64,000 nucleotides of DNA, taken from NCBI GenBank assembly GCA_031763025.1, contig JASSKH010000021.1, forward strand, positions 5,288,611 through 5,352,610. Direction: 5' to 3'. This document shows, piece by piece, positions 1,400-62,023 of the stretch. Below the pieces are notes generated by a model. The model was given only the letters and a program-made list of their open reading frames with translations, made no database searches and had not been told where the DNA came from. This DNA comes from Macrocystis pyrifera (Eukaryota > Sar > Phaeophyceae > Laminariales > Laminariaceae). The number at the start of each line of letters is the position of its first letter. Within the stretch, counting starts at the first letter, position 1. The translations under genes and the position numbers were made by a program.

Positions 1400-2260
1400 G
1401 CTGTCACGTCCAGGCCACACCGCATCAATTCCATCCTGGCCAAGGAAGTGGAGGCCACCTTGGACCAGTACCTCGCCCCAGGCCTAATCCAGAGCTCGAC
1501 CTCGAGCCCGCTGGTGGTCATCTCGAAAAGTCTGGAGGCGTTAGGATCACCGTCAACTACAAGAAACTCAAGCAGATCAGCAGCCTCAGCCAGCTACCTA
1601 TTCCTCGCGTAGACCAAGTTCTCGACTCCCTGGGGAAGAGACGCGTGTTTTCCCTCTTCGATTTGGTCTCCTCGATCCACCAGATTACCGTACACAAGGA
1701 CATCATCCCTCTCAAGGCGTTTTGCACTCCCACGGGCCTCTTACGAGTGGCTTGTCATGGCCCAAGGCAGCAGTGCTTCGCCCGGCTGGTTTCGTCAAAG
1801 TGAATAACGAAGTCATCAAAGGTCTGGCACAGGTGGCGGGGTACCTCGACGGTGTGATCGTTTTCGACTCTGATCTGACGGCCCACATCAAGACGATACG
1901 AGACCTCTTCAAACGCCTGCGCAAATACAACCTCAAGCTCTCCCCCTCGAAGGCTCGCCTCGGTGCCACAGACGCAAATTGTCTGGGCCATTCCATCTCG
2001 CCCGCGGGTATACGCCCAAATGCGGACAAAGTTTCTGTTTGGTTGAAAATGCCCATGTCCAAGAACCTCATACAGGTCCGTGCGCTGATGGGCGGCGTGT
2101 TGTATTATCGCAACTTTCTGCCCGACCTGTCTAAAATGATTCGCCCTCTTACCGCCCTTCTCCGGAAGGGGGTTAAGTACGTCCTTACGCCGGCTGCGGA
2201 AATTATCGTCCGCCAGATCCTCGCCGAGCTTGCTGCCCCACTGATTTTGGTCTTCCCTGA
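1400..2260 (+). pseudogene. Gypsy reverse transcriptase domain, frameshifted, catalytic motif altered
   Basis: Readable RT blocks in order are: KEVEATLDQYLAPGLIQSST (about 1447-1505), RITVNYKKL (about 1545), LPIPRVDQVLDSLG, FSLFDLVSSIHQ with the first catalytic Asp (about 1655-1685), YEWLVMAQGSSASPGW (about 1742-1790), then AGYLDGVIVFDSD (about 1837-1875). Further on are LKLSPSKARLGAT, LGHSISPAGIRPNADKV, and RALMGGVLYYRNFLPDLSK. The box expected to be Y-x-D-D reads YLDG, so the second metal-binding Asp is lost. At least two frameshifts (about 1530 and 1790) separate the blocks. Confidence 0.9.
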
Positions 2261-2289
2261 TTGGGACGCCGTAGCCGACGGCTCCCGAC

Positions 2290-2782
2290 CATTCCACGTC
2301 TACTACGACGCCTGCATCGACGGTTTGGGGCCGTGCTCGAGCAAGAACAACCGGACGGCTCGATCCGGCCCATTGCATATATCAGTCGCGCCGTCCTCGA
2401 TTTCGAGAGGCACTGGACCCCGTTGGACCTGGAAGCTGGCAGCATTTTCTGGGTCATCAAACGACTCCGAGGTTACCTGTGGGACACGAAGTTTCGAATA
2501 TTGTCGGACCAAAATGCACTTGAAAGCATCGGCGAGGTAGTCGACCGCAACGCGCGAGTCCAGCGGTGGCTCGAGTTCCTCACCGCCTTCGACTACACCC
2601 TCGGGCACCACAAAGGCAGTGCCAGCGGAAATACTGATTTTCTTTCCCGCTTGCCGGAGACCGCCACAGAACACGACCGCAGTGGTCTAGCAGCCTCACC
2701 CTCGTCGAGGACGGTGATATCTTCCCCATCCGAGCCTGCGGACTTCGAACTCACTCTCCACCGACCCCTGATGTCGGTTTGA
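2290..2782 (+). pseudogene. Gypsy RNase H domain, split by a frameshift
   Basis: HVYYDACIDGLG (about 2298-2333) begins the RNase H fold. After a frameshift around 2335 the fold continues with LEQEQPDGSIRPIAYISRA, HWTPLDLEAGSIFWVIKRLRG and FRILSDQNALESIG. The three acidic residues expected of retroelement RNase H (D in YYDA, E in DLEAG, D in LSDQ) are all visible, across two frames. FLSRLPE near 2640-2660 marks the usual domain end. RNase H would remove the RNA strand during element replication. Confidence 0.88.
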
Positions 2783-3117
2783 GCTGATGCCCCACACTGA
2801 AAGTGCCGTCTTGGGTGGGCTGCCTTTCACCTCTTCGGAGTTTTGCGATTTTCGTGCACACGGGCCACTTATGAAGATTGGCGATGTCTCTGCTCCTTTG
2901 GAGAGATTCGTCGCGCGTGTATCCGCTTCCGTCGCCACCGTCGATCGCCGTCCTGGTTTGAGCCTTTATTCACCCACCGCCAACTCCGCTTTCGCTTCGG
3001 GTTTTTGTTGTACCCTCCGGAGGCAACCTGGGCTCTGCAGAAGCCCCCGCTGCAGCGACGATAGTCGCCCAGCACGCTCCTCTCCCGACGAGTACTCTAC
3101 AGGGAGAAGATTCCGCC

Positions 3118-4605
3118 GTGATCACTGATCCGGCCGCGTCTCCCCCTTTGCTGCCTGGAAACCCGGCGCCTCTGAACATCTTGCCGCCTTCAGGTCGCAT
3201 CTCCACTCTGACGCGCCGACAAATAGTCGCGGCCGCTGGCACCGCGCCGCCTGCTGTTGATAATGGCTTCGGGCCCGGCGGGCCCCCTAGACCATCCGTC
3301 CGGCGTGCCATCACCCCGCCGCCAGCCCCACGGCCGCAACCGCTCGCACCCGTCGTTATGACCCCGGCTCCTGCCGCCTCGTCGATCCCGACGCACCCAT
3401 CCCGTCCGACCGCGACCGCGCCGAGCCCGTGGAAACTCCTATTTTTACGGCTTCCGCCGCCAACTGACGCACCGCCTGTCACCACGACCGACTTGGACGC
3501 CCTTGGCGCAGCTGCCGAATTTCAGTTCGGCGATTTCGCAGCTCGCTATTCGCACGCCGACTGGGCTCGGGAACAACCGACCAAGCCTGCGTGCAATTCC
3601 ACCATGCGCTACTTAGCCCTTGGCCGGCCGGAAATCTCGCCAGCCGACTTTTCGTCGTGTTTCCCTTCCCACCAGCGCCCTCCTTTTCCGGAGGTTCAGG
3701 AGCTGGCTAACAAAGGTCGCTTGCACACCACCGACAAGGGCATCGTTCTACTCGTCCGACAGCCGTCCCCCCCCCTTACGTCAGACACGGAACACCCGGT
3801 GGGTCGTACGGTCTGTTTATTGAACGACGAGCCTATTCGCATTGTACATGCCGCTGCTCATGCGCCCCTGGGTCATGCAGGCTTGCCACTCCACAGCTTC
3901 CTGTCAACTAGGAACCTCGCGCACCCTACGTATGCTCGAACGTTTCGACTGGTGGATCGGTATGAGAATCTGCCCCCGGTGGTGGTTACGCAACTGCTTG
4001 AAGTGCCGAGCACGGAAAAGCCGCAGACGGTCCGGTGGCCCACCATCACGTTGCCTTTGCCAGAAAGGCCCGGCATCGCCGTCAGCATCGACTATTTCGG
4101 CCCTCTCCCGGTGACACCTCGAGGGAATACGTACATCTTGTTTTTCACTGATCGTTTCAGCCGCCGAGCCGACATGTACGCCGTCATAGCGGCAGAGTTC
4201 ACCGCTGAGGGCAGGGCTATCATTCTCATCAACCGGTATATTCCCCTCTGGGGGGTGCCCGCGCAGCATCCTCTCGGACAACGGCCTCCAGTTCTGCTCC
4301 AAGCTTTCGCACGCTGTTTGTCAGCTTCTCGGGGTTCGAAGAATCGCCACCATCTCCTACCACTCAAACGGCAACGGTGGGGTGGAACGTGTAAACCACA
4401 CAATGGCCCAGATGCTGGTAACGGTCGTCAACGAGCTCCCAAACGATTGGGATGAACAGCTCCCTCATGTCGAATTTGCGTACGACAATTCCGTCAGCGT
4501 CGCCACGGGTTTGGCTCCCAACGAGGTCCATATGAATCGGCTGCCACGCCTTCCTCTTACGCGTTTCGAGCGTGCTGGAGTCGGCGGCCACCAGAGCTAG
4601 GCCCA
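3118..4605 (+). pseudogene. Gypsy integrase region with Pro-rich leader, frameshifted
   Basis: A Pro/Ala-rich leader (3118-3500) is followed by the zinc-binding region. Its His pair is in HAPLGHAG (about 3855-3880). The Cys pair is in CLKCRARK (about 3995-4020) in another frame. The DDE core shows VSIDYFGPLPV with the first Asp (about 4080-4110), ILSDNGLQF in a shifted frame (about 4270-4295), and NGNGGVERVN with the Glu (about 4368-4400). All three catalytic acids survive, but frameshifts near 3930, 4250 and 4340 separate them. A further open stretch, VNELPNDWDEQLPHVEFAYD, runs to a stop near 4600. Confidence 0.88.
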
Positions 4606-4679
4606 CGACCACCTGGCCTACAGCGACAAGGCGACGGACCGCCAGCAGCGCGCGTACGATATCGTTCGCGATCACCACG

Positions 4680-5700
4680 CCCTTACTGTTGCTCGCGTGA
4701 AACGCCGCAACTCCGCCCTCTCCGACGTTCTGCGTCCAATCCCCAAATGCGACGTTGGCGGCTGGACGTGGGTGAACAATACGGCGGCCACCATCCGCCA
4801 GGGCGCGAAGCCCGGCACAGACGCCAAGAACCTCAAGGCCAACTCTCACTCAACTGGACGGGCCCCTACAAAGTGGTCGCAGTTGGCCCTTGCTCCTCAG
4901 CGGGCACCCCGGACGGATCTTCTCTCGGGACAAAGCTCCTGTATTTGGATCTTCCTTCCGATATGCCCGGCGCTAATGCTCGCCGGCGCGTACCAATTCA
5001 ACGCTGCAAGCCCTGTGCCAACCTCCACGACCGTGGTGACATGCCGAAGTATTTAGCGGCAGGGCTGACGCAATACGTGCTCTACAATTCTTCAAGAAAT
5101 CCCCCCCGTACCACGTCACCCAGGACGATGTTTCGACCCCTCTTCAACGCCTCGAATTGGGAAAGAATACCGGACACCAATCGCTTAGAGGTCGAGGTCG
5201 TGTCATCGTGGTGATGTACGAAACGCACTGGACAGGCCTATCCCTTCCATCCTGGGAACGGGAAATGGATCTTCAGCTTTCTCGCCACGAACGATTGCGC
5301 TACTGGGCCGGTACCCTGAACCAGCACCGCCAAATAAGCCGCCCGTACCGCCGAATGAGAATCGGCGCGACACAACGGGAGATTTCTCGGAGTAATGGCG
5401 AGCGGTTGTTGGCTCCCGGTTATGGCTGCGTATCGCACGCCGGTTGGCTTCGCCGATACAGCGACATATTGCTTCCCAACAGGGCTCACATTCGATACAA
5501 GGGAGACGACGGTCTGTGATGGCTCGGGAAAATCAGCGCGACTACGCCAACGGATGGAGTATATTCTGTTCGAGTTTTGGACAACCCGGGACCGATCCAG
5601 CTTACTTCTCCGGTGCGCTACACGACGTCGACGAGAGCTGTACGAGGTTTTTGGTGTCCGCGTAACGTATATGAATCTCGAGGCGCCGCCGTGGATAGCT
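4680..5700 (+). pseudogene. C-terminal region of the gypsy polyprotein
   Basis: Downstream of the DDE core the element continues in several frames. 4690-4840 reads VKRRNSALSDVLRPIPK and GGWTWVNNTAATIRQG. 4747-5214 contains SLNWTGPYKVVAVGP, which resembles the GPY-type segment after gypsy integrases. 5157-5519 contains MYETHWTGLSLPSWERE and RYKGDDGL. A last piece after the 5518 stop reads on to about 5690. The final section resembles a chromodomain-like end, but I cannot confirm that fold by eye. Confidence 0.75.
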
Positions 5701-8560: not shown

Positions 8561-8936
8561 ACCAAAAACAAAAAATCGCAACTTCAAATGTCAAGCAGCA
8601 AGTAAAACGCCAGAGTAGCGGGTACGAGAACACAGCAACACATTGTATAATCAAGACCAGAAAAATCAGGACACAATCACCAAAAACAAATATATATATA
8701 TATACTGTAAATGTAACATAATACAAGAACAAACGAAATATATCTGCTGCACGGACGAAGCAACACGAAACAAGTAAGAGAGGAAGATGCCGGCATGTAC
8801 GGACGGCGGGGAGGGGAAAGGAACATAATAATATTAATAAGTAAGGGAGAGACAAGGCTAAAAAACAAGAAGAGAGAAATGGGTCCATGAATTTTGTTTT
8901 CACTTACGCATGTGGTCCACAAATATTAATATGTTG

Positions 8937-10099: not shown

Positions 10100-12040
10100 G
10101 AGTTTGGCGTACCAAGACGCTGAGAATTATCCGTAATTTCCACGATGGCATGCGGGCTCGCGTGCGTACGGATGATGGCGAGCACTCGGAATGGTTTGAT
10201 GTCACGCAGAGGCTGCGGCAAGGCTATGTGCTATTGCCGTTATTGTTCAACGTATTCTTCGCTGCTGCGTTACACGTCATACTAGTAAGCTGTAGCCATG
10301 ACGAAGCCATCGTAAGGGATTTGGTCCAACTCAGCGATCCTGGAGTAGTCGGAACGGAGGAGCAGGAGCCGTTGGCGTGCGTGCGAAGGGCTGTATGGGG
10401 CATGTTATACTGCTTGTTACAGTGGTTCGGTGCAACAGGGCATTGCCAAGGTGGCCGTCGAGAGGCCCGATAGACAACGGATTGATGCCGAACGAGGAGG
10501 GTTGCCTTGAAAAGGATTGCCAGGGAGGCTGACATGCGGAGCAAAGACAGGATCCATGCCGAGCTGTTAGACGACCTAAAAATAGGGGACGATGACGAGA
10601 AACCAGGGAAACACGCCTCCAGGAAGTCAAACCTCAGACGGAAGGAGTGCGGTACAGACAAGTTTTTCCCTGGCCAAGAGCAGTCCAAATACTCTGAGAC
10701 CCACCTTACGTCCTCAACACCTGGCCTGTCGAGCAACGAAAACTAGTGAAGGAGCCAGCGTGGACCATCAATACTACAACCAGCACGTGGGAGCCAACAT
10801 GTCCGCAGGTCAGACCAGTTCCGTAGAGGTGCGATTTGTGGTGAACGCAAGCGAAGAATGGGCCCATGGAGGTCACCACAGTGGCTATGAGATGAGTTAC
10901 CACCACAAGGGGTACCGAGCTTCTTTCTAGCCGGCAAGGGAGGACCCCTGCGCGGAGAGAACATTTGAAACAGTACGTCAATGACGCAGGGATTGTCTCG
11001 AATTCGGCTGAAGGGCTCGCGAAAATGATGACAGCCATCGTGAATGTCTTCGAAGCAGCAGGCCTTACGGTGTCGGAAAAGAAGACAGAGATAATGCTTC
11101 TACAAACGCCAGACCAGAAAAGCCTCGCACCACCGCTCGTCATCGAAGCAGCAGGCCAGAGGTATAAGCAGACGGCCCAGTTCTCATACCTAGGCGGCAT
11201 TGTCCACGAAAACGCTGACCACTCGCTCGAAATCGACCGACTGATCCGTCTCATGCGAGCAGGCCTCAAACGGTTCAGCCCGGAGCTGTATGATAGGACG
11301 ACCGCCCCCCTTAGCCTGAAAGTCCGAATGCTGAAGGTCGAGGTGATTGAGACCCTGCTGTACGGGTGTGTGACGTGGACCCTCAGAGCGGAACACTTTG
11401 CCGAGCTTCGAACGGCTCACCACCAAGTCCTGTTGCGAGTCATTGGCTTCCAGCGCCGACTTCGTACTGACCGTACCATCCTCTCGTACGCGAAGACCCT
11501 CAAGATGACACGTTGCGAGGGCATCGAAACCATCCGCAAACGGCGGCTCTTCTTCGCGGGGGGGGGTGGCACGGCAAAGCCAGGACGATTACCCAGCCGA
11601 GTGATGTTCGGGATGATGGCAGGTGGGGAGAACCCGAGACCTGACGGACAGGTTGAGACTTGGCATAGGTGCATAGTCGAAGACCTTAGGGAGTTCCGAG
11701 CCACCGAAGGGTCAACGGAACTTGCTCCCTTGGTGTTTGGAGTTGAGACCGCGCTGTGGTCCACTGCTGCAAAAAAGGCGCGGAAGTGGTACCGGGGGAT
11801 CCTCGAAGCAGCCGAACGCTTCATGGTGAGGTGGCACGAGGCTGAGGCTGAGCTGAGTAGGCAGCACCGCGTATACGCCGTGGGTGGTGTCCAAGGGAAT
11901 GAGGGGAGGAGGGGGGGGAACATGAGGAATGGCAGAAAACCCGACCAAGGGAATGCGGAGAGGGGGGGGGGGGGAAGAGGAGTAGAAGGGAAACTGCAGT
12001 GGACGAAAGGAAGATGGCAGACAGGGTAGCCAGGTACCGG
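10100..12040 (+). pseudogene. LINE reverse transcriptase ORF, copy A, 5'-truncated and frameshifted
   Basis: 10150-10310 encodes [22 protein letters not shown] followed by [19 protein letters not shown], the GLRQGCxLSPLLFN-type block of non-LTR RTs. After disrupted sequence, 10965-12029 is open for about 354 codons. It begins KQYVNDAGIVS (the expected Y-x-D-D box reads YVND) and continues through SEKKTEIMLL, FSYLGGIVHE, LIRLMRAGLKRF and LLYGCVTWTLRAEHF to a C-terminal region. No endonuclease domain is visible. The protein would copy LINE RNA at its target site. The altered catalytic box and missing 5' part mean this copy is dead. Confidence 0.9.
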
Positions 12041-15018: not shown

Positions 15019-15853
15019 GAAGTAGAACATGCCTATACTACTCGTACCACCAACTGGTGCAGCTGGTTCGAACGTGGTCTTCCTTTGTCTTCCGGTTTTT
15101 TTTTATTTTTGTTTCAATTTATTTTCTTGTGATTTTCATTTTATTTTCTTTCTCTTCCTTCCTCCGATTGATAACTGATAAGTCTAGTTGAAGGAGTCGT
15201 GCGGCGTGGGTGGATGACGAACCTGCTTTGCTTGTTTCGTATTGTCTGACGCCGAGGGGCCGGGTATAGTTGACGAACGCTGGACGAAGGTGGCAGACAG
15301 GGTAGCAAGGTACCAGGCGGGCCAGCAGGGAGACCCTGGCTGTGCTACTCGTACCATAAACTGCTGCAGCTACCTGGAGGATGCTTTGTGCTTTATCTGG
15401 TTTGCCTGTTATTTTCCCTTGGTTCTTAGTCTTACTCTGTTGACGACTGTATATAGTCGTGTTTTCTTCTGTTTCCTTTTTTTTTTCGTTCTAGCTAGTT
15501 CTTTTCAAGTGTCTGCGAGATCCCCTGCGGGGGGGGCACGATGGTTTGTTGTTATGTATATACCAGGTATATATTTGTTTCTTTTTTCTTGTTTCTTTTT
15601 CTCTTTCGAATTGTCTTTGTTTTGTGTTTTTTTCTCTTTGTTTCGTTTCGTTTCTCTAGGTCATGGAATGTGTATGTCGTGCCTGTCGTACGCAGTATGA
15701 TGACATGGCATTGCATTGCATACGTGGCAATGTAGTATCTCTCTCTGTGGCGTAGCTTTGTGACCACAGAACTTGTATCTCTCTAGGATTGAAGAATCGG
15801 CACGTACACTGGTTGTGCTGGATGTCGACGGGTAGAAAGAACGGATGTGAAGA
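15019..15853 (+). mobile_element. LINE 3' tail of copy B (T4)
   Basis: Same block order as the tail of copy A, ending GGGTAGAAAGAACGGATGTG. An internal near-duplicate of the ORF-end block is visible: GACAGGGTAGCCAGGTACC at 14988 and GACAGGGTAGCAAGGTACC at 15296, each followed by ACTCGTACCA. The tail carries one TACCAGGTA motif at 15561 inside a TA-rich stretch that the other tails lack. Confidence 0.8.
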
Positions 15854-20443: not shown

Positions 20444-20913
20444 TATACAACAGCAAATGCCAACTGTGTCAGGGCTTCAGCCGGCGTTTGCCACCAGCCT
20501 GTATCATATAGATATCGTGCAATGCGTGTCATTTACGGCTCAGATGTCTAGTATAATAATAGTATTCAGTGCGCGTGTTTATTCTGTGTCCGCACTTCTC
20601 TCGCTCGTGAAACCAGGTTGTGTCCTCTGTTGAAAAAAGTCGTACCAGGTAGTGCCTTCTTTTTGGGCGGTTGCATATTTGTTCACGGAAACAAAAACAA
20701 CACGTACGTCTGTCTATGCGACTTGGGCATGGACAGACGACACTTCCTCTTCCTCCACAAAACATACGGACGCGACTTATTATTGTTTGCTGTTGTTTCG
20801 ATATATTTATGTACATGTACAATGTATACTACCTCTCTATGCTCGGAGTTTTGAGCTTTGAGGCGTGATGCCTTCATGTCATAATACAGAAAGATCATAT
20901 ACCAGGTACCAGG

Positions 20914-21022
20914 TATTACGGGGGTCCATAGTTAATAGGACCTATGGTATACATAAAAACCTATATATTTACCTATGTTTACAAACAAAATTTGGCCCCG
21001 TTAACTATGGACCCCCGTAATA
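20914..21022 (+). mobile_element. MITE copy 3, inserted at a TACCAGGTA motif
   Basis: Intact ends TATTACGGGGGTCCATAGT and ACTATGGACCCCCGTAATA. The left TA is also the last TA of a double TACCAGGTA motif (20900-20915). Removing the element restores ...CCAGGTAGTAG..., consistent with a TA target. Confidence 0.92.
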
Positions 21023-21530
21023 GTAGTTGTTAGGAAACCAAAACACGAAAAAAAAGGGTTGTCTATCATGTTCGTTGCCGCGTTGAGTTCACGAGTGATG
21101 CATGGAAAATAAACCGCTAAAACAAATAAAAAGTATTTCAAGTAAAATGCACCACATCGGCGGAAAAACTGCACGTAGAACGCGTGCAAGGTTCTGCTAG
21201 ACCTACCTACCTGCACATTTTTTTAATACCACCTGGGACCCTGTTCCCATTTGGTACTTCGACCCCGCCGCTCTGGGCCCATATCCCACTTGGCACCCTG
21301 TTCACACCCAGAGTGTAGAAATATCAGCCCTCCGCAGGAGCCGCCGGAGGCGCCCACCCGGCACCCTGATAAACATTGATTGTTTGTATACCATGTAGCC
21401 ACACATATATCTACACAACAACAAAACTCCTGCCATAGATATTCATACGACCGTAGTGAATTTACGTGCAATTTCTCCGCGTATGGAAAAAGGTGCCCAA
21501 CTCTATTTTTTTCCTCCGCCCGTTTTTTAC

Positions 21531-21680
21531 AATTCGGTTTATCATACTACTTGTAAAATTCGGTCAAAATGAAATATAGACGAGACGTATTACGCAGCTT
21601 TCGAAGTTGAGTATTAACTATTCAATCAGTCGAACTCACAGCTGATGTATTTCAAAATTTATAAAAAAATACCTGGTATC
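21531..21680 (+). repeat. ~130-bp direct repeat, copy 1
   Basis: It aligns with 21853-21990 through TTCGGTTTATCA, CTTGTAAAATTCGGT, ACGAGACGTATT and GTATTTCAAA. It carries TACCTGGTA at 21670, where copy 2 has only TA, and lacks it where copy 2 has one. Confidence 0.85.
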
Positions 21681-21852
21681 AATTAAATTTTAAGGTTTCA
21701 ATATGTTGCAACATCATATCAATATCCCTTGTTCGGGTTATATAGTATCAGTGCGCAGAATGACTATTCAAAATTGTCCTGCTGACCCGGGCAGCATCCA
21801 GGGGAGCCGCTGGCCTATATATTTGACAAGGAATTACATATAGAATACGCGC

Positions 21853-21990
21853 GTTCGGTTTATCACAATACTTGTAAAATTCGGTTAAAATGGAATATAA
21901 ACGAGACGTATTCCGCAGCTTGCAAAGTTGAGTACCTGGTATCAACTATTTAATCGGTCGAATTCACATCTGACGTATTTCAAAGTTTAT
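21853..21990 (+). repeat. ~130-bp direct repeat, copy 2
   Basis: Paralogue of 21531-21680. It carries TACCTGGTA at 21933-21941, where copy 1 has a plain TA (GAGTATTAAC against GAGTACCTGGTATCAAC). Confidence 0.85.
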
Positions 21991-22847
21991 AGAATATCAT
22001 CCGCGCCGTACTTTCTCTGTCCAGTAACAGCACTCAGTCGAGAGTTTGGGGAAAAAATAATTAAAAAACGTCGGTCATCAGGGCCGGTGCTTAGATTGGG
22101 GGGGGGTTCTTTTGTCCAGGATTTTGAAATCGTTGCCTGCTGTGGAGAACTTTCCTATTCCAAAGTCATGAATGGAGACTTTTTCGGCAGGTGAATCATG
22201 TGACGTCAAGTAAAAGACAGATGTGTGATTAATACTATAAAATAAACGCAAAATGCCCTGAGCTCTGCCGCTTAACGACGCGATCTGTTCTCTCCGCTTC
22301 TCAACCCCTGGAACATTCCCCGCCGTCGCTTCTCGCCGTCGCCCAACTTGTCGATGTTGTGTGTGCGCTTGAGTTGGTTTTGTGGTCGTGCGGCGGGTGC
22401 GTATCTCCTTGTTTATTTTCTTTTCGTTTGGTCCAGCGTGGCGAGCACAACATGCATCCTCCACATGCCACGACCCGGACCTGCTCGCCTGGTATCAGAC
22501 CTACACACCTACCTGCTGTGCTGCTTTGTCGACCACAGCAGCAGCAGCAGCAGCAGCGGTACCAACAAGCTACCACTGACTGGTTCGGGCAGGTGCCGAG
22601 CCCTTTCGTTCTACGCTTTTGGGGCGGGTAGGCAGTCGCCTCGACCATCCTCCTCGTCGTCGCCCAACTCGAGGTTACACGCCTTGATTTTTATCGTGGG
22701 AATCAACATTTTTTCCCCTACAAACAAGAAAAAAAGTTGGCTGCCCACGAGCTGGACCAGCCAAGAGGTGTGGCCGGAGCGCGCTTATTTTTTCACTTTC
22801 GATTTGTTTTACGTTTCTTATGTCGATTTTTTTTCTCTCTTTCCAGA
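21991..22847. other. Anonymous sequence with a (CAG)n tract
   Basis: It contains a short (CAG/AGC)n run at about 22541-22558. Several overlapping open frames across 22078-22860 show no conserved motif. Confidence 0.3.
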
Positions 22848-23052: not shown

Positions 23053-23400
23053 CGGCCTTGCTCGGGCATAGAGTGTGTATGTTATGCCTGTCTTATTGTC
23101 CAGTACGATCACGTGAACATTGCATTGCCTACTCTGCTTACTGCATCACAGCAGTAGTAGTGCTGTGTGTGCAGCGGTAGTATTACGGGGGGGGTACATA
23201 GTTAATAGGACCTATGGTGTACATAAAAACCTATATATTTACCTATTTTTACTAACAAATTTTGGTCCCGTTAACTATGGACCCCCGTAATAGTATGCGT
23301 CGTAATTTTGTGACCGCATAGCTTGCATGAAGAATCGGCACTGACGCTGTGATGGTTGTGCTGATGTCCACGCGTAAAAATAACAGTAAGAACAAACAGA
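23053..23400 (+). mobile_element. Degenerate LINE 3' tail interrupted by a MITE
   Basis: 23060-23180 resembles the GTGTGTATGTCGTGCCTGTC...ATGACATTGCATT part of the LINE tail. 23295-23395 resembles the ATTGAAGAATCGGCAC...GGTTGTGCTGGATGTC part. The MITE at 23181-23292 separates them, so it inserted into a pre-existing tail. Confidence 0.6.
23181..23292 (+). mobile_element. MITE copy 4
   Basis: The left end is TATTACGGGGGGGGTACATAG (extended G run) and the right end TATGGACCCCCGTAATA. Forward core orientation. Inserted in a LINE tail. Confidence 0.92.
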
Positions 23401-23665
23401 TTGGTCATGTGCCCCCCCCTCCATGCCACATATACCAGGTACCTGGTAATGGGATACATACGCGTTTTCAACACGGTGTTTTTTTCCAGGTATGTTCGTA
23501 TGTGTGTTATGCGCTATACACGTTCGTTCGCGTTCGGGTATTGACAAGACGTATCGTACGAGTATGCAAAAAAAAATGACGTTCGCGTTCTACTCGAAAT
23601 GACCCCTGGAGGAAAGCCTCCACATAGTTTGGCAACCACTTCACATTTGCTTTGGTTGCGTCTCT

Positions 23666-26250: not shown

Positions 26251-29200
26251 GTAAGTCGGAACTCTTGAACGAAGTGTCTTTCGCACCCAAACGTAACTGG
26301 TTCCTGACTCCAGTCGTCTCGGCCCGTTTACTGACAGCCCTGATGGAATTATCCTGAATACAGAGTGCTGTATAGACGCATTTTACGGTAGAGGAGTACG
26401 GATACCTTTTTTTAATGCTCACCCAAAAACTGGCTTCAGGGATGCATTCACACTCAAACCGATGAGCAAATTCCACGGCGTAGGTCTGAAGCCGAGGTCT
26501 AAAACAGACAATGCTTGGGTAGGATCACGGTTTGGAGGCCCCATCCGTTAGAAATTGTCCTGGCTAAAATGTGCCATCCCTATCGTAAAAAGCCTCCATA
26601 TTCAACTTCAGCAAGCTTTTACGGCTCAAGGTGGACAGTATATCTCGTGCATATACACCCGAAAAGCCTTGATGGGTCAAGCCTAGACGGTCTGTGTTGA
26701 CAAAAACAAATATGCTCGTATCTATAGCCCAATGGGCTGGACAGACAAGTGGTGTGCTTTCAACTGTAGGACTCTACTTCTTGTCCCGGGATCAAATCAC
26801 ACGTGGAATTGTAGTCCTATTCGTGTTTCTATTCGCGCTGCGCACAAATAAAGGTCTCAGGGCTCAAACATAGTGTATAGGAAGAGCATCGTTATCCCCG
26901 TGCTGGCGTGCAACTCGTGAACCACACGTGTCACGCGGTAGGAGCATCTCCGAGTCTTGTTTAGGCCACCGTCGTGTGACGTACTCTAAACACAATGACA
27001 CACTTTTACAGTAAAAGAGCTTAGGGTGCAAAAATACTCTTGCCACAGAAAAGGGGTTGCATATTTTTTTTGGCTAATTTGTTTCCGACCTGTTGAGCTC
27101 CTCCAGTAGGAAACTAGTAGGGTCTACCGGTTGGAATGGTACTGTTGGCAGTTTATTTGTTCGGGCCAAGCGCATAGAAAGGATGGTCGGGTTGCGCAAG
27201 TAAAGTTCTCCGAAGTCAGCTACGTGTGAAGTGCTGAACTCTTCACTGGAGGAGCCCATTACGGGGGGGCATGGTAAATAGGACCGAATATTGTTGGTAA
27301 AAACAGGCAAATATATAGGTTTTTGTCCGTACCTTAGGTCCTATTTACTACTGGCCCCCCGTAGCAGCAAATAAGCCACCACCCCTGCCGTGACATTGGT
27401 CCAAAGTCTCCGACAAAATATTTTTCGGACGGCTCTCAACCAGATCCTTCCGAACACACCCTGTTCCGTATCGGCAAACTTCCCCCGCCGTAGAAAAATC
27501 GAGCTCTGGGAAACGATTGCACCCCTGCGCGAAGTTCAACACTCTTTAACCCTGTCATAACTGCAGTCCCGTTTGAGGGATCAGCAACTCATTTTTCAAC
27601 CATTACGGGGGACCATAGTAAATAAGACCAAATATTGTTGGTAAAAATAGGTTAACATTTATGTTTTGATGTGCAACGTAGGTCCTATTTACTATGGTCC
27701 CCCGTCATAGTTTACCTCAAGACGGGACTGCTAAAAGGCTTAAAGTAGATACACACCTTGTAAGCCACTCCCGATACACGCTGACAAAAGGTCTTGCTAT
27801 TACGGGGGACCATAGTAAATAGGGCCAAATGATTTTAGTAAAAGCATGTGTATAAATAGGTTTTTACGTATGCCACATATCCTATTAACTATGGTCCTCC
27901 GTAATAATATGAAACTGCATTACACATGGACGCAAAATATAGTGGGTAGCTCAGCAGTTGAGGCGCATCGCCAAATGGGAACGTGTTTTGGGACAATTTG
28001 GTTTTCCCTCTCCATCTTCTTCCTCCCTATTACGGGAGACCATAGATAATAGGACCTACGGTACACACAAAAACCTGTACATTTTCCTATTTTTACTGAC
28101 AGTATTTGGTCCAATTTACTATGGTCCCCCGTAATAGTCGCAACTCAGGTCCAGGGTCAGGCAGCAGGCTTTTCTCCCCCCTCGCCACTGCGGTACGGTA
28201 GTGGAAAGGAGCCCCCCCCCCGTCTTGTAGCGCCAGTTGCATGCAGCACATAACACGGCACAAAACCGCAGACGGCATAGAAAGAGACTACGGGAATAAG
28301 AGTGTATTCTGGGAAACGATCTGTCTTGAAATAGTGTCAACCGCACCTATTAATACCCCGTTCGTTTTTCTCTCTTCCAGAGGTATATAGTTTGCTGATA
28401 TGTAAGTACCCTCCTTAAGCTAACAAGCACAGTGGCGTGGCCTCGCATTGTCTACTGTCCTCGTAGAAATGCAACGCAACATCTCTGTGTCGTGGTGTCT
28501 TGGGGCAGCAGAGCTTGTATCTCTCCCGCGTGAGGAATCGACATGCTGGCGAGCGGAAACAAACGTTAACGTGAAAACACACACACCACTCTGCCTGGAA
28601 AAATACCCGCCGTTTAAAATCTAGTGCGAATAAATACAGTAACGCCAGTTTGGTTTTCCGGCCAAAGTGGTATCCTCGAATTTTAGATTCAGTTCGAACC
28701 AAGTACTCCTCCTTGTTATTTCTACAGAAAAAGTCTCGTGAAAATCTTGTGGTGTCCTGGTGTGAAGATATTAGAATCCACATCATTTCAATTATAGTAT
28801 TTGCTTCCATGGCAGTTACCACGTACTTCCGTGAAAATGAAATCTAGTTCCGACACGTGAAAGCTAAAAATTACTTCCATGGAGGCTTAAATTCTAACTT
28901 CCACGGAAAAACGTTTCAAATCAATGGAAATACGTGGCAACATCCACTGTTGGCCACCAACCCACCAACTGAGGCTTCCACAAACCGCGTTCGATGGCAT
29001 CCACAAGAGTCCACAGACTTCCGTTACTTCCATCAGCTTCCATAAGCTTGATTACTCCCATGGAAGTTGCCTTCCGACCAACAAGCGTATATGCCGTTCC
29101 TATATAAACCAAATATCCTTCCGTAAATCAGTAGTATCCGTCATACACTTCTCTGCCAGTCTTTTCTTACTGTCATGGATGTAAACACGTTAAATTCGAC

Positions 29201-38712: not shown

Positions 38713-41700
38713 ATAGCTATCGTCGGGAAATCTAGATTCCATGCAAACTCGATCGCGAGTTTTCGGATACTGGGGGCAGTGCTGTGGCAGTAGCTGCAGG
38801 GAGATGTACATAGAAACATCACTTTGGCTCCAAACTTGACACTGTTGGCTGGCCTCAAAGGAGTTGAGTAGACGTGGTTGTGCCTTTAGGGGCGATACTC
38901 TAGAGACTTTTTAGAGGGAACGTAGATACACTCCTTCTTTTCGGTGAAGTATGTTATAGGCGCGGGTGGCTGAATAAAATAGTTGCCGGCTTTGAGTTAG
39001 TGTTCACCTGGTATTCACTAATTGCTTGCTTCGGTTGGACGGTACTTGCCAGGCTGGGAACCACTGACGGGTGTGTCGTAGGGCATGCAAACATACGGCA
39101 TATATATATGGGAGAGACGAAGCGTGCTGCTGGTCTACTGTGCCACAGTCCAATTTGAAGGCCTTCTATTGAATTGTACGTACCAGGTATACATATAATC
39201 GCGGGAGGTTCGGGCAGGCAAGATAGCAGCGTAAACACACCAAATAAGGCAATTCGCTGTTCGCCGTGGTTGCCCACTGGTTTATTCATGCGTTTCTGGG
39301 ATGTGGCACACGACAAGATGGTGTAAGTGTCATGGACGCTGGAGGAGTTAGGTAGACAGACATGATAATGCTTGGAATATTTGTCGAAGGCGCCACTCGC
39401 GTGATAGCCCATTCAGGACTACGCTCCCGCTTGGGGGACACATCATGTGGGACATAAAGCTAGAAACGCGTTTCTGTAAAGTGCGGTGCTTAAACGCGAT
39501 ACGGCAATGTCCGGTGACTTCCGGTGGATTTGGTGTAGCTTGGACACCTAAGGGTTCCACAAATCATGAGAAAAAACGTGCGTGTTCGTGGAAACGCTCG
39601 CCCTTCGGCGTGATACATATCAAGGACTGTACCACCTGGGAGGAGGGCAGAGGGCTGGTATGAAACCGCAGATCTCAGTTACGATCAAAAGGGGGAGGGG
39701 GTTGGGTCCAGCAACTAAAGAGAGAAGGTGCACTCAAACGCGCGTACGGCGTACGCATTGTACGCTGTAACGTGGACCCGAGCTGAGATAGAGGTAGTAA
39801 TGTTAGGCCAGAATACTGCTGACCGACGAGGTTGCTTCACCGAGGAACTGCCTAATGGCAGCGTGAATCTAGTTCTTGTTTCACAGCAAAAGTATGTGAA
39901 TAGCGCCCTCCGATACGCGGAGGTTGATTGCCCATTCTGTTCCAAGAACAGGTTTCGGCAGAGCTAATGGGATAATCAGAGACAAGGGCTGCTAGCCCTC
40001 CCGAAGCACACGTCAGCGCATGTATAAATGCGGTGGCACCCCTACGTTGAGCAAGAACCTCACAAGGAAGTTAGACGTGCGTTTCTGCCCCGATACCAAG
40101 TTCTGGTTGTGATGCGTGCCAGACTTGATGTGGAATACACCTTTACTCAGTTGTGAAACCTAGGTTTGAGCCAGTATATCGGTCCCCTCCCAAGAGAGCC
40201 AGTGCTACTGCATTCGGAGTTGAACACGGCTATCATCGACCACATCCGAACGTCGACCCATATTATATTCCTGGCACGTAAGTACAACGTTTGCACGATC
40301 GATCAAGCAGGGGACAGGCTGCTTCACTCTTCACCACATCGATTATGCTTTCCTATGGTCTAAACCCAGCCTTGCTTCGCTGGTCATGATACCTGGTGTA
40401 CGCTACTGGTATGTGTTTTCGGTGCTTTCGCAAGCATCGTGTGTCGTTCAAACTTGCTGAGTCCACAAATATTTAACAGGTACTACTGGTGAAAGCCCGC
40501 ATATTAGCGTAAGGGCGGTGGCGATTGCAACGTTGAACTGTGACGAAGAGTTTCCCCAGTGGGGGCAATTAAGTTACGGGCTTCCCAAGCACGTCACAAC
40601 CTGGCGAAGAGAGCCCTGTATCCCCAAGGCAGACGGGATGGAAAATCAACGTTGAGTAATGTACACACTATAGGTTAGCCGTTGGGGTGCGATGTCCGAC
40701 ATTTTCTTTGTGGGTTCGACTACGCGACTCATGCTAGCTCTGGCTAAGTTGATATTTCCTCCCGAGCTACACCCGCGAAAATCTCTTGCTCGATAGTGTT
40801 GGCTTCATCGGTGACGACCTGGCATGCGGAGGGTTACAACCTGTGTTGAACGAATTTCTGAATACTGTCATAAACTACCGGGAGGTCTTAACATTGCCAC
40901 ATTGTGTGCGAAGTGTAGGAATCGAAAGCAGTGCCCAAACGACAAGGCCGTGTATATGCGTACACTCAATCAAGTAGATAATTTCTCGGTCCAGCATGAT
41001 AGTAAAACAAGTATCCTCTCTACCTCAAAACAAACACGTAGACGTTCGATGTTCCAAGTAAAATTAATCTATTTCAATCATGTTGGTGCTTGGTATGGTA
41101 TACTGCCTGTTCCAGGTATTATGATCTCCCTTAAAGTGATACGCAGCAAGCACATTCAAGCTAATAACTCGAAATACAGCAAACGTTTGCTTGGGCACCA
41201 TGTCAGCGCGGTTTGTTTGCCCTGCCTGATGATCGCACGTGGCGGTCCAGCTTGACGAGTAGGTGCGCAACCGCGTTTCGCGTTGAAGTTCATGACGCAT
41301 TCCCTGTCACGTTTCGTGAGCCCATAGGCACCCCCAATGCTTGCCCTCACATTTCAGAAACCAAGACCGAGGGGTTCAAGCTAAGTTGTTCTTTTTCCTG
41401 ATTCTACGACAGTTCAGTACATATCCTCGAGTGCCGGTTGTGGCGTTACCGCCCCATTCACTTACGGCTTTCCAACAGTTCGTGTTTTCGCGTGATGAGG
41501 TTCACTCATATATTGACCACTCCCAACGCGTCGCAAGTTTCGAGCTCGGGACGAATGAGCTTCCTGGCTGTTGCAACTCGTGACTTGTCAACCGCACATG
41601 CGCTCGCGTGGATTCGAACCGACACCAGGCACAACTCGCTGACTTGGGAAGGTAGGGGGGTAGCGGTACAACCAATTTGTATGGCTCAGGCAAACGCCTA

Positions 41701-42955: not shown

Positions 42956-45600
42956 TCCACGGTCCATTCCGCACGTTGCCAGACGTGATCGAGTATCAAA
43001 TACACAAGTCCGACAGCCCTTGTCAGCGAGGGTGTCGCCTCCTTCGTGCGTCGAACACACCACGTCTCTTAGGTTCCATCCCAGTCGTGATCGGTAGGCC
43101 TACCGTAGGCGCAGGCATGCCTCAACCGAGATCCGAAGCCCCCCTTCGGCGCTGAATACCCCAGATCAGCTTCAGTGGTTTCGAAAGATGTTGTACAGAT
43201 ACACATGTCGAAGATTGAGTGCCACGTGCTTCTACTGTAAGATGCTATGTATGTCTCGTACAGGGAAATAGAAGCGGTGGGGGGGGGGTGGGGCTCCGTT
43301 TTTTGCTTTGCCGGTGTTGCTGAAACACTCCACCAACGTATTTGGTGGTGTTCGTCCGCCGCGTCTACAAGCGCTACTTTTTTCTTTCACGATCGCGAAT
43401 ATCTGGATGCACGCCGTTGGAGTTGTCGAGACTTAAGCAATGCCTTTTAGGGGGGGCGACGTATATATTGGATTAGCTCCTCACATAAGGAGCTCAATAG
43501 TTCATCCGAAACATCACTCCAAAGAAGTTCGTTGGTCCGACCCGACCACTGTTTTTCTGCGCTACCAGGTAGTCTTTACACAACAACCATTCTGATGAAA
43601 GTGTGATTCTAACCGCTTTTCTTTCTCAGTTGTGGAGTTGAATCCGCCAGAAAATATATCGCCAGAAGTATCGACGTGCACCAACCGATTGCGTCGGGTC
43701 GCGTTCCGAAATTTTCATTTTTGGGATTTTGCAGGGTATAAGTAACGGCAAACAGTGACCCGATTACAGCAACGACCAGAACCCGAATGGGGGATGGTAC
43801 AACGTATTGCTGAGGTGCAGTGGAAGGAGTCGTCCGGCGAAAGGCACACAATGACATTCCTTGTGCTGCTTAGCACTGACGCTGCTTGTAGATGCATAAC
43901 AGCACAAACTTGGCGCAGTTTAGGTCGCTCTATGTGGAGCCCTAAAATCCCTAAAAGCCTCTAATAATGGGTCCCGAGACAGGCGACCAAACCAACAGTG
44001 CGTTTGGTGATATCAACCGCCTACGAGCAACGTGAGCACCTAACAGCGTGGGGGAGAATCAGAAGGACACACTGCGTGAGGGGGGTGATGCTACTAAAAA
44101 ACTAAAATGTGTCAAAGTTTCAATTCAACGAGTCGCGCGGGATGTGCTTTTATTAACTTATCTATCTACCTGTGCCACCGCCCGTAGACGGTTGAAAACA
44201 CCAAATAAATACGTACTTGAATTGGCTGCTATCAGTTGACCCCTTTCGGACCCGAGATAACGACCTGTAAAAAGGTTGATAATTTTGGTGTTATCAACCA
44301 TTGAACCGTCTACGAGGAGGGCGGGTGTCTATCAGCTCGCGTACGGATCATGGTATGCCCCACTACGGGAGTGGTTGAAGATTCGGCGGCACGCCCATGG
44401 TCTTACCTGGAGCCCCATAGTACAGACCAATCAGCGTTCCATTTGTTTTTCTTGACCAATGACAGTACTAATAAAAAAGCCTTTGCAGGGTGTTCCCATA
44501 GTACACCCCATAGTACCGGAGGGATGTGACCAATCGAGAGCATCACGGGGAGTATGTGGCGGTGGAACCCATCATCAAGTCCCTTGTCCACGCTCTGTTT
44601 GCACCGCTTTTATACCCAACGTGGTCAACTCAAGAGGACGACCGTCTCAGCTGTAGTGTTGTAGCGGCGGACAGAGGGATGTAGGAACCGAAGTGCAGGC
44701 TTGCAGCAGCACAAAGGTAAAGCAGGGGTGCGTAAGCTGCTGGTGATCGAGTTGTTTCATCTTCCCAGAGTGGGTAATCAGCTCAGACGACGATGGAGAT
44801 GTGGCCCTTGGCCGTCGCAGTATGAGAGCCTGCTACGGCAGGCGGGACTTGGTCGCCGGGTGAGAGACTGCTCCAATGGAGCGCCATCAGCTTGCCTCCA
44901 GGCACCTCTTGGCGTCATCGCTACACGCACCCGGCGGTGCACCGGTTTTGAATTGCACAGCAGTCCATCCAACACATATCGTAGTTATTGGACACCACAC
45001 TGGTCATATAGGTACCTACAGCAGCAGCACCGACAGGAGCAGTGATCGGTACTATTTTCGCGCTGGACGTTTTGGTATGATTAGTCGAACGATGAGTGGC
45101 GTTTGAAATCATGTTGAGAGCAATGCGGAGGGGTGGTGGTGTTGGCAGTACTGATGGCCCTGACTATGTGACACCTTTTGTTCGTTTTCCTCTTTGCATT
45201 CACGCCTCTCTTTCACTCTAGAAATGGTGCAACACCAGGCGGTATGCTGACACCAGAGAAAACAGCTACTGTACTCGACAGGAGTTTATAGCTTCAGGCT
45301 CGAGATTCGGACAAAGATAAGGAATGTGGCATTATTTACACTAAAAGTTGAGTAGGACACACCCCGTCTGACATGAAAAGAAATAGAGCCTGACCCGAAA
45401 TAAGAAAATTAGATATGCTAAAGTGGTGTCGCATACTTGCAACATACACGTGGTGTTTGTCGTGCGATTGTCTTGCACGCAGCCGAAAGCGATGCCCTTG
45501 CAGCGGCGGTGACGGCGGAGAGGGAGCAGGAGGGCCAACACAGGCATTGCTTGCTGAGGGAATCAATTCGCTGACGGAATTCTACAAACGAACCAGTAGT
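42954..45600. other. Anonymous sequence
   Basis: No gene was recognised. A GCTCCTCACATAAGGAGCTC motif at 43476 resembles the palindromic start of the dispersed repeat at 41849. TACCAGGTA occurs at 43563. Confidence 0.3.
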
Positions 45601-50960: not shown

Positions 50961-53070
50961 TGTATAACCCGTTCTTCGGACTATATAAAGGGCAAAGCAA
51001 AAGGCAACATCCTGCTCGTAGCACAGAATATTCATGCCACTGCATTCGCCACCGTCTGTACGTACGTCTCTTACCCACGGTCAATTAGTGCTTTTAAGCC
51101 GCCAACGCATTCCAGCCTGCGCCAAACAACTTCCTGGGCTGGGCTGAGACAAACTACCAGGTACCGGTGTGAGGCCCAGTCAGGTGGTTATGAGAAACTC
51201 ACAATCGTCCACATCCTTCCTACATCGGCGTCCCCTTCTCTGCGAAAACATATGTCGGAATAGACACATTCTTTTGGGGAATGCTACTGTACGTACGAAT
51301 AAACTAGGTATATTTTGTTTATCCCCGCGGGTATGTTCGTTTATGTGCATAATATACAGTCAGTTGTTGTTGTAGTGTGGCTTCTCGCCCCGATGTCGAT
51401 GGGGCGGGCGCCCGCTGTAAGTCTTAGTATCGTGTGTACGAGACACCAAGTGCTGAGCATGCTGATGGAGCATGCCCTTGACTGTAAGATATACCGCAAC
51501 TTGTTACTGTAAGATATACCCCAACTTGTTAATCCCTTATCTTATAGATAGATGCAAACCATGAAGAAAAAAAAAATCGATAACAGTGCATGAAGCAAGG
51601 GCAGCAGCCCTGGCTGCATGGATATATCGATGGATGGATGCAGTGGATACAATATCATCGTAGTCGTGGTCGAACTCCAATCCGACTAGTGTACGGCATC
51701 GACGCCATCGTGATGATTGGTACAGTACTCACCGTGCCGCGCTCGCTCTCACGAGGCGGTTGTACTCGGACAAGACCAGCACTGTCTTTTGTCACGATGT
51801 TTTATGCTTTTACGCCCTCTAAATAGGTTGCTACAGTTTGTGTTCTACGGAGGAAGTAATGTTTTCACAGCAGCAGCAAGCAGTAGGAATCTGGAACAGA
51901 AAAGAGGGGACGCCAGCAGGGTGGATCCCTTTTCGGGAAAGCCTCATTGTTGTATGGGGAGACAGTGATTGAATATCACTCCGTGAGCGATATCGCAGCT
52001 CTACAACAGCACGACAAAGTAGAAAGAGGCTAGGAAAAAAAAGACCATCCCGCCCGCCCATCGTTGGTAGCGAGGTGTACCGTCGACAACGACACATCAG
52101 TTTTGTTAGTGTTTATTTTACCGGGGTACCTACTCTCTGCGACGAGGTGTCGCGTTGATTGCCAGGCAACCAACGCTGGAGTAGTAACCCAGCGTGAGAG
52201 TCCCCGGCTGGTCGCAGCAGGAGGCCTCATTGATCCCAAACCATACACGAATTAACGTACGACGCGATGTTACAACAGTATCCCTATCAATATTTTCAAA
52301 ATAGACCCTATACAATAAGAAGACGTGTTCACCGATATGAGTATATACATAACACTCTCTCGCCAACACCTGTATCTCACCGACGCGCGGCACTGAACAG
52401 CTACCTAATATCGCTGGAGTTCCGTTTTGTGTGTTTGACAACAACAACAATAGCAGTAGTATCCGCTGCCATGGATCCCCTCTATTGCCAAAATAATGTA
52501 CTCACACTCGCCTTATACTTCCATATTAATGAATTCATTCCATGCGTCCCTACACCTACATTGTTATAAAAAAAATATCGTTTCCCTCTATTATTGGCAA
52601 AGCATATTATTAATAAACCACACTAAGATCATCGTAGCTCAAATCTTTCACCTGTGAACCATCCACCCCTACGTGCCTCGTAGGTGAAAAATAATTATTC
52701 TTTTGACTCAGTATCGGTCCATTAGTATTTACCTTCCACTTGAGATTGTACATATCTACTAGATGTACGTTCATTTTTTTTTTCTCAAAACCAGAGAGGT
52801 GTGAGAGGTGTGAAGCTCATACAGTGAGAAGCCTCACTTGCTCCTACCGTACGTGGTATGCTTTAAAAGTGCGTACTACTTCATGAATCCCTCGATGGCT
52901 TCATAACTTAAAAACGCGAAAACAAACGGCGAAATCACCACATCTTGGTCATGCAAAGCCGCTCGCTCGGACGAATACGGACTGACAGTATTGACACGGA
53001 CGGATCGGAACTCGCGGAGCACATGATGAAGCGATCCGTAGTGAGATGAGAAGCGTTCTATGACAATAGA
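50961..53070. other. Anonymous sequence
   Basis: A 25-bp tandem duplication (ACTGTAAGATATACCGCAAC) is at 51481-51530, and TACCAGGTA occurs at 51155. No gene was recognised. Confidence 0.3.
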
Positions 53071-59126: not shown

Positions 59127-59618
59127 GACCAACTATTATGGGAAATTTTTGAAGGGGTCTCAGAACTGGCTTTTTTTGCCGAAAACCGGCGATTTACTAG
59201 ACGGGACTGTCAAAAACACCGGTAGACTCGTCAGGATGCTCCCCTTAGTTTTCCGAGAGCTTTCGCGAGCACTTTTCCGTTTCTTCAGAGTCGTAGAAGG
59301 ACTGTTCGTCCATATTTCCAGTTCTGAGGACATTGTGATTTTTCATAAAAAATCCTCGAAGATCCACTATAGTTCTGGCCCCAGTTCTGACCAACAGCCT
59401 TATTTCTGACCCTCCATAGAAAAGTGATTGGCTGCTCCAAAATTTAAAATAGGACTCTGGATAAACGGAAAATTGTTCCTGAAAGCTCGCAAAATACTAC
59501 GGAGAGCATTTTGAGGAGTCTATCGGTGTTTTCGGCTTTCCCGCCGATTAAAACGCGTATATTCGGCCTAGAAACCCAGTTCTGAGAGCTCAGAAATAAT
59601 TTCCCATAATAGTTGGTC
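59127..59618. mobile_element. ~490-bp foldback element with long inverted arms
   Basis: The outer ends GACCAACTATTATGGGAAAT and ATTTCCCATAATAGTTGGTC are exact reverse complements. The inversion continues inward: GTCTCAGAACTGG against CCAGTTCTGAGAG, and AACACCGGTAGACTCGTCAG against GAGTCTATCGGTGTTTTCGG. Arms reach about 170-190 bp. There is no transposase ORF, so it would be non-autonomous. Confidence 0.8.
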
Positions 59619-59668: not shown

Positions 59669-59701
59669 TACCTGGTACGCATGTACCAGGTATACCAGGT
59701 A
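59669..59701. repeat. Cluster of three TACCWGGTA motifs
   Basis: TACCTGGTA at 59669, TACCAGGTA at 59684 and at 59693, the last two directly adjacent. They lie just downstream of the foldback element. Confidence 0.9.
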
Positions 59702-60783: not shown

Positions 60784-62023
60784 CATCGACCGAGGGGAGG
60801 TGCTATCGCCTTCGGAGGTGTAGACGACAGGCTCCGAGCGAAGTAGTGGCCACGTCTGCCGATGTGGTACGACGGTTTGTTCGAGTTTTTACTCAGTTTA
60901 CCGCTCTACGGCGTGCACAGTACTGTAGTAGAAGCGACAGTTGCCATAGCCGAGCCAGACATGTAGGCTGAAGCACTACCGGTGCGGTGCCGTGCACCTG
61001 TTAATGTAGCTCTAGATGTGAGATCGTAGCCCATCTATCTCCGTCACCTCCCACGGTTGTTGGTTGCTGTTTGTTATCTCACTTGTGGCTCAGTGCCACA
61101 ATCTAGCTTGTGGTGACAGATCAACACGAGGGGTCTTATGGAACACGGGAAAACAATACTACGATATAGATGAAGGAATACGCTGAGAGGGGTGCGAAGA
61201 AAGCCGGATACAGCCAATACCCCATACCTCTTCGTCCCAGAATTTTGTAGAGTCACAGAGAAGAGCAAATGAATAACAGACCTATACCTGGTACATGCTA
61301 TTTATAGTTACCTGGTACACATGGATGTAGAACTGCACTGCAGCACCGGCCCGCTCAAAGAAAAAATACTGTATGTAGCTCACAGGAGAGTCAGGCGCTA
61401 ATTTTCGTGAACTTACGGAAACTCTCAGACTTATCAGGGCCTAAAAACCTAAAGAAAGGTGACCGCTTCCTGTGGATGGCCTGGGCCCAAAACGCCGTGG
61501 CGCCAGCGCGACTAGACGGTACTCGAAAAACGTTCTCGCGAGGAAGTAGATTAGAGCGCGCGTAACGAAAGGAAGTGCGCTTTTGCGCGGGCCCCAAACC
61601 AGAAGGGCAGCCTGAGCCCGAGTTCAGCTTTCTTGTGAGAGTGCCGGCACTCATATGTTATGTACGAGGTACTTATATACCAGGTGTAGAAGCAGGAGCA
61701 TACGAATATGCTACACTCTGCCTATATTTACACGCATACTCGTCGCAGGGGTTTTCGACGATATCCAATAGCCCACCGTGTCATACGTACACATACCAGG
61801 TATATAAACAGTCACACAGAAGAGGCAACATTATTCAAACGCGCCAAACAATGCCACTGCCGTACTGCCGTTTTGGTGGCATGATACCCACAACAATATG
61901 CAAGCCATATCCTAGACCACCATCTATATATATATATATTATTATCCACGCTGTACGTTACGTAGCCCGCTCCTAGACCGCTCTCGTTGTTCGTACGGCG
62001 TTACGGCCGAGAGTGCTGCCTAC
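60784..62023. other. Anonymous sequence rich in TACCWGGTA
   Basis: Exact motifs are at 61285, 61309 and 61794, with near matches at 61663 and 61678. No gene was recognised. Confidence 0.4.

Follow-up and report, generated by a model that had tools for sequence, protein, structure and literature searches.

Two copies of a dispersed, SINE/LINE-like repeat lie on the forward strand of the window, a stretch of 64,000 nucleotides of the giant kelp Macrocystis pyrifera, at 21533-21666 (copy 1) and 21854-21994 (copy 2). BLAST aligns them at 84% identity, which confirms that they are paralogous, as stated in the original prediction. At the TA of GAGTA/TCAAC (the slash marks the junction, here and below) copy 2 carries seven extra bases, CCTGGTA, which form the motif TACCTGGTA at 21933-21941, and copy 1 is empty at the same TA (GAGTATTAAC); this 7-bp gain relative to the empty paralogue is real. 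A reciprocal gain had also been claimed for copy 1, at a second TACCTGGTA (21670-21678), and it was not borne out. This motif lies past the end of copy 1, and when the repeat copies of 19 further loci (L030-L048) were aligned, the tails listed in the displayed part of the alignment diverged by locus directly after TTTATA and a few A, which is where the SINE/LINE-like repeat ends. Because 3' tails differ between loci, homology between AATATCA(T) of copy 2 and AATACCTGGTATCAAT of copy 1 is unsupported; the word at 21670 remains a TACCWGGTA site, but one that lacks a valid empty counterpart here. The reciprocity argument therefore fails, since one of its two sites is non-homologous, and the two repeats provide one true filled/empty pair instead of two reciprocal ones. 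Elsewhere in the window, pieces resembling a Ty3/gypsy retrotransposon were recognized by eye in the translations of 1722-4849, and the relatives of a reverse-transcriptase open reading frame at 10965-12029 include Ectocarpus proteins. Protein P0001, with 75% identity to this reverse transcriptase, is assigned to a bacterial bin of Parasphingorhabdus, in which it is probably an algal contaminant.

The same 9-bp word is found throughout the window, with 20 occurrences when 0.39 are expected (mean of 100 shuffles; shuffle maximum 3). In addition to the sites already described, TACCAGGTA occurs at 15561-15569, 20643-20651, 39181-39189, 43563-43571, 51155-51163, 61794-61802 and 63543-63551, and TACCTGGTA at 59669-59677, 61285-61293 and 61309-61317. 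Two motifs, TACCAGGTA TACCAGGTA, stand together at 59684-59701, and doubles are found as TACCAGGTACCAGGTA at 20900-20915, whose final TA also serves as the left-hand target duplication of an adjoining MITE, and at 62405-62420, and as TACCAGGTACCTGGTA at 23433-23448. In a 264-kb sample composed of the window plus twenty 10-kb segments of the same contig, we counted 68 TACCWGGTA against 2.2 expected under a trinucleotide model; the centre base was W in these 68 and C/G three times, and the TA edges were sharp, words with edges one base off being rare. Genome-wide, in an assembly of 537,376,219 bases and 223 contigs, TACCNGGTA was found 133,388 times and its reversed control 4,445 times, so that about 0.46% of all TAs carry it (133,388 of about 29 million, the latter extrapolated from the 14,219 TAs of the 264-kb sample). 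This assembly is described as 537 Mb from a haploid female gametophyte (PMC10498591; here and below, cited papers are represented by excerpts). One-mismatch relatives of the motif were in excess by about 25 in the 264 kb (78 against 52.9 expected) and intact motifs by about 66, which as a rough estimate corresponds to a divergence of a few percent and suggests that these sequences are not ancient. The motif is almost perfectly palindromic and highly abundant, as would be expected of a functional palindrome (a regulatory or modification site) that is selected or carried by repeats. This explanation is scarcely credible, because the motifs lie at unrelated positions and, within dispersed repeats and a MITE, in copies whose counterparts lack the motif, and because the gain of 7 bp falls precisely at TA; the existence of empty sites largely refutes it.

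The dispersed repeat provides a trap of known sequence, AAGTTGAGTA/TATCAAC. Its empty state, AAGTTGAGTATCAAC, is present in 4,119 copies genome-wide, and the pattern AAGTTGAGTA-insert-TATCAAC, which itself fixes a TA on both sides, matched 132 copies carrying inserts 1 to 25 bases long (control, 1), so that by arithmetic on exact-flank copies about 3% of the trap TAs are filled and about 1.4% are filled with CCWGG. Insert types were tallied from 100 of the 132 inserts, transcribed by hand. Among these 100, 44 were exactly CCWGG (CCAGG 28, CCTGG 16) and 54 contained it; the others included CAG/CTG (5), CTGCTG (2), duplications of the repeat's own sequence (7), CTAGG (3, all from one contig), and CCATGG, CTGG, CCAGGG, CCTGCTGG, CCAGCCAGCCAGG, CCAGGGCCAGGGG, CAGTCAG and CAGCAGTCAGCAG. 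The inserts that are not exactly CCWGG look like variable end-joining scars. CGAG/CTCG (6) and CGTCG (2), also listed among the 100, are maybe scars of further TA-target elements. The claim that the motif arises by insertion or scar formation at TA and not by gradual substitution thus holds, with 4,119 empty against 132 filled copies at one site; empty TA sites, whose absence had been named as grounds for rejecting it, are abundant at this single TA, and the gain of 7 bp at TA is independently supported genome-wide by both counts together with the removed-unit test given below.

A different explanation would be that the motif was copied along with repeat families from filled master elements instead of being inserted anew. 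It is common to some copies (L001/L003; L007/L008/L017), as copying would predict. On a tree of 27 repeat copies the empty state was clustered (3 changes; shuffled mean 7.7), which weighs against the footprint reading presented below. This tree is nearly unresolved, leaves out seven unparsed rows, one row of insufficient length and the window's own copies (L029), and over-represents filled copies because the search query was itself a filled copy. On the same tree the A-centred state required 6 changes (shuffled mean 6.4) and the T-centred state 8 (shuffled mean 7.8); the two states are scattered and therefore not apparently inherited from a filled ancestor. This lack of clustering, the low share of filled exact-flank trap copies and the 52 isolated sites with mostly unrelated flanks (by eye) in the 264-kb sample make copying from master elements highly improbable. 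Furthermore, the same 7-bp gain was found in other repeats, at L015:2288, within a copy of a 105-bp MITE that has several empty relatives, and at L023:3575 and L023:9119. When the 7-bp unit was removed by script, a gap-free empty paralogue was obtained for 4 of 66 motif sites in the DNA examined, compared with 8 of 680 TA-N5-TA controls, two of these eight lying next to a motif (Fisher p = 0.016).

The 52 isolated sites also revealed a target preference. Reading outward from the motif, T, A, T, A and T occurred at +1 to +5 in 51, 38, 40, 38 and 42% of the cases, whereas the corresponding values for all TAs were 29, 27, 28, 27 and 29%. This bias is alike on both sides and for either centre base, and it is therefore a property of the target and not of the interior of an element; for the same reason, a terminal inverted repeat (TIR) interior hidden behind TACCAGGTA was rejected. 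The flank preference TA-T-A-T-A-T is close to the palindromic AT repeat preferred as target by ZB, a Tc1/mariner transposon (PMC7913693). The motifs thus display two traits of the Tc1/mariner group, a palindromic AT-rich target preference and insertion at TA with TA duplication, the latter seen as a net gain of CCWGGTA next to the empty copies of the trap.

The evidence, that is, a net gain of CCWGGTA at many separate sites, a target bias, an empty majority, variable by-products and, as described below, another scar of this genome that is tied to an element of its own, leads us to interpret TACCWGGTA, with a probability of roughly 0.8, as the excision footprint of a cut-and-paste transposon that targets TA, has termini beginning with CCA and is probably Tc1/mariner-like. 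Among the explanations offered in the original prediction, a Tc1/mariner footprint fits best. The element would insert at a TA in a ATATATAT-like context, duplicating the TA; upon excision, each flank would keep two or three of the element's terminal bases in the form of 3' overhangs, and joining that retains CCA and GG, or CC and TGG, would then produce TA-CC(A or T)GG-TA. Alternatively, with CCAG termini and a four-base overhang, CAG could anneal with CAG around an A:A mismatch to give the same product. Slips of repair could generate the minor forms CCATGG, CCAG, CCAGGG and CCTGCTGG as well as direct or inverted doublings, and CCATGG, which is present among the trap inserts, is what ends CCA...TGG would leave if three bases were kept per end. 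The cuts that Tc1/mariner transposases make on the non-transferred strand lie a few nucleotides within the element and leave 3' overhangs, and the footprint of Sleeping Beauty at TA is CAG (PMC8151067). The footprint here has 5 bases, compared with the 2-4 bp given for Tc1/mariner elements by the authors of the ZB study (PMC7913693), and this difference weighs against our interpretation.

Tandem doubles, TACCWGGTACCWGGTA, were counted at 5,620 positions (control, 0). In the 50 double loci listed out of 5,620, the order of the centre bases was A-T in 22, A-A in 13, T-T in 14 and T-A in 1, and the excess of A-T over T-A (22 against 1) has p = 6e-6, with the loci being partly non-independent: two of them, C1:24921 and C1:106613, fall within copies of a single repeat, C24:34009 overlaps with 34016, and the loci on C45 and on C65 may each form one array. 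If the hits were independent, A-T and T-A would be equally numerous, which makes templated repair, inverted or direct, the probable origin of most doubles; the order bias counts against independent sequential hits and weighs against the footprint reading. In the C. elegans germ line, breaks left by Tc1 excision are repaired by polymerase theta, with joints of one-nucleotide homology and occasional templated insertions (PMC4490562), and we infer that the direct and inverted doublings seen here resemble the latter. The doubles and their strong order bias could also be explained by a novel micro-insertion process in which a preformed CCWGG(TA) unit is put into TA sites without any long element, for example by a transposase or repair enzyme using a short oligonucleotide or abutted element ends. 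The uniformity of the product, exactly CCWGG in nearly half of the trap inserts listed, and an occupied allele missing from the trap would be accounted for in the same way. We consider such a process quite improbable, since the by-products at the same TA vary like end-joining footprints, the target bias is transposase-like, a MITE-like family with CCA ends is present and, in the same genome, a sister scar is tied to an ordinary MITE.

This sister scar is TATTAATA, which was counted 104 times against 3.3 expected, on two strands and thus at 52 places, and which lies in the window at 8832, 8924, 12075, 16952, 23886, 28348, 37100, 37360, 49951 and 52608. The family that leaves it is the 105-bp MITE, TA/TTACGGGGG...CCCCCGTAA/TA, with 52 copies in the DNA examined (window and sampled loci); the copy at 20914-21025 adjoins one of the doubles described above, and copies are also seen at 23184-23295, 27602-27710, 27799-27907 and other positions of the window. 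At +1 to +5 the flanks of TATTAATA show G.53, T.54, A.47, G.31 and T.38, and those of the MITE show G.67, T.50, A.46, G.33 and T.43 (46 ends), so that the two biases match at each position. In addition, a second site in the same repeat, CAA[CT]TA/TTTAATCAG, has 23 exact-flank copies in all DNA examined, 18 of them empty; among the others, L050 has the MITE between its TAs, L058 has TATTAATA and three have other contents. Empty, occupied (1 of 23) and scarred (1 of 23) states are therefore all present for TATTAATA, which is read as the excision footprint of the 105-bp MITE. The match of the flanks and this trio indicate that excision footprints arise and persist in this genome, and that one of them can be tied to its element. 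Since the two scars have TA on either side and are found in one and the same repeat, TACCWGGTA could be a footprint of the TTACGGGGG MITE itself, with one transposase leaving two kinds of scar. This is very unlikely, as +1 is T for TACCWGGTA and G for the MITE and TATTAATA, and the ends of the MITE contain no CC. The scar of Sleeping Beauty, TACWGTA, has A or T in the middle of a self-complementary core, as TACCWGGTA does. This word is itself found at 90 places in the 264 kb, in L010 and other loci, against 34 expected (about 2.6-fold), and favours G at +1; it may represent the third family of footprints, one resembling that of Sleeping Beauty.

The original prediction had proposed an unseen element whose ends start with CC, and a family of about 80 bp with ends CCACT...AGTGG may be this element. 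One member, of 85 bp and with boundaries set by eye, is CA/CCACTCTGCCTGGAA...TTCCGGCCAAAGTGG/TA at 28586-28670 of the window; it contains a TACAGTA word. Another, of 79 bp, is TA/CCACTATGTCCGGAAA...TTTCCAGACATAGTGG/TG at 7177-7255 of L010. These are the only two-ended copies read, each with TA on one side and CA or TG opposite. A right end, TTCCGGACAGAGTGG/TA, is found at L036 1792, a possible end at L055 83-95, and a likely relative, the 79-bp pair CTACTCTGTCCCTAAT with TA on both sides, at L034 1961-2039. The end TACCACTNTGTCC had one match each in L010, L036 and L055 (3 of 62 loci), and TACCACTNTGTCCGGAA had 3 matches in the window at up to 3 mismatches, against 0.54 expected. Being CCA-ended, TA-preferring and MITE-like, this family is the first candidate for the source of the CCWGG scar, and its ends provide a putative link to the scar. 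It is much rarer than the scar in the DNA examined. The search for full elements with CC ends yielded this family; at the trap site, the pattern with the candidate end (AAGTTGAGTACCACTNTGTCC) had 0 matches genome-wide. Mining of about 0.35 Mb for TA-flanked elements with CC-started TIRs returned mostly the TTACGGGGG MITE, scar pairs and pairs nested in larger inverted repeats (e.g. L008); CC-started pairs other than the CCACT family were rejected as scar pairs or parts of larger inverted repeats. Inverted-repeat candidates with termini TTATGGGAAATT between TAs were also noted, at 59136-59609 of the window (474 bp) and 8442-9255 of L014 (814 bp).

Occupied alleles were further sought among genome-wide trap hits, 9 with AAGTTGAGTACCWGGV and 9 with AAGTTGAGTACCWGH. 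Six of the 18 were short inserts already counted, and the remaining 12 (L049-L054, L057-L062) were read by eye; none contained a complete element within the about 550-600 bases read, a longer one being possible at L051, L060 and L062. The trap held CCAGGG in L050 and L054, CCAG in L058 and a scar with one altered base in L052 and L053; L057, L059 and L061 contained a diverged relative of the trap repeat, L051 entered another repeat (downstream view only), and L049, L060 and L062 were without trace of the trap repeat. For CCWGG at the trap, the empty and scarred states are consequently present and the occupied state was not found. As to the DDE transposase that the original prediction associated with such an element, the profiles PF13358 and PF01359 had 0 matches in the genome, with 3 of 14 controls matched for the former and equally silent controls for the latter. 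A more radical possibility is either a near-complete removal of the transposon, perhaps developmentally timed and with fixed repair, or an element-free insertion of 5 bases by a transposase. We regard this as unlikely; if removal was near-complete, the kelp would have, or would until recently have had, a TA-target transposon that left more than 100,000 uniform 9-bp scars and comparatively few element copies, and excision this close to quantitative would have an effect comparable to the programmed elimination of internal sequences.

Footprints at TA are of a known kind; their scale here and their five-nucleotide, W-centred form are unusual. Sleeping Beauty shares with the scar described here the TA target with its duplication and a short footprint, which here is probably derived from the ends of an element (PMC8151067), and differs in that its scar has three bases instead of five (CCWGG) and in that about 130,000 scars are found here in one genome, with a source that is a candidate. 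Footprints of plant Stowaway MITEs and mariner elements similarly combine a small duplication with short end sequences after excision (PMC4561436), whereas here the candidate element is far scarcer than the scars in the DNA examined. In 45 natural isolates of C. elegans, fewer than 10 deletions were found at known transposon sites (PMC4490562), compared with more than 100,000 scars here. In the brown alga Ectocarpus, Mariner-Tc1 elements are present in almost 12,000 copies and are mostly non-autonomous MITEs; the words "footprint" and "excision" have 0 occurrences in the main text of that study, and the excerpts of it contain no mention of a CCWGG scar (PMC12477816). Among titles and the beginnings of abstracts, with few subscription papers covered, no report on TACCTGGTA/TACCAGGTA or on excision scars of brown algae was found, and little was found on the excision of mobile elements in these organisms.

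If the footprint reading is right, one genome keeps a readable record of more than 100,000 transposon excisions, from which target choice, repair outcome (the centre base and templated doublings) and the timing of past activity would be measurable in brown algae. The ratio of scars to elements raises the question of where the element went. Lastly, a 7-bp scar in a coding exon shifts the reading frame, and excision would therefore be a source of mutations in a cultivated and ecologically central seaweed.
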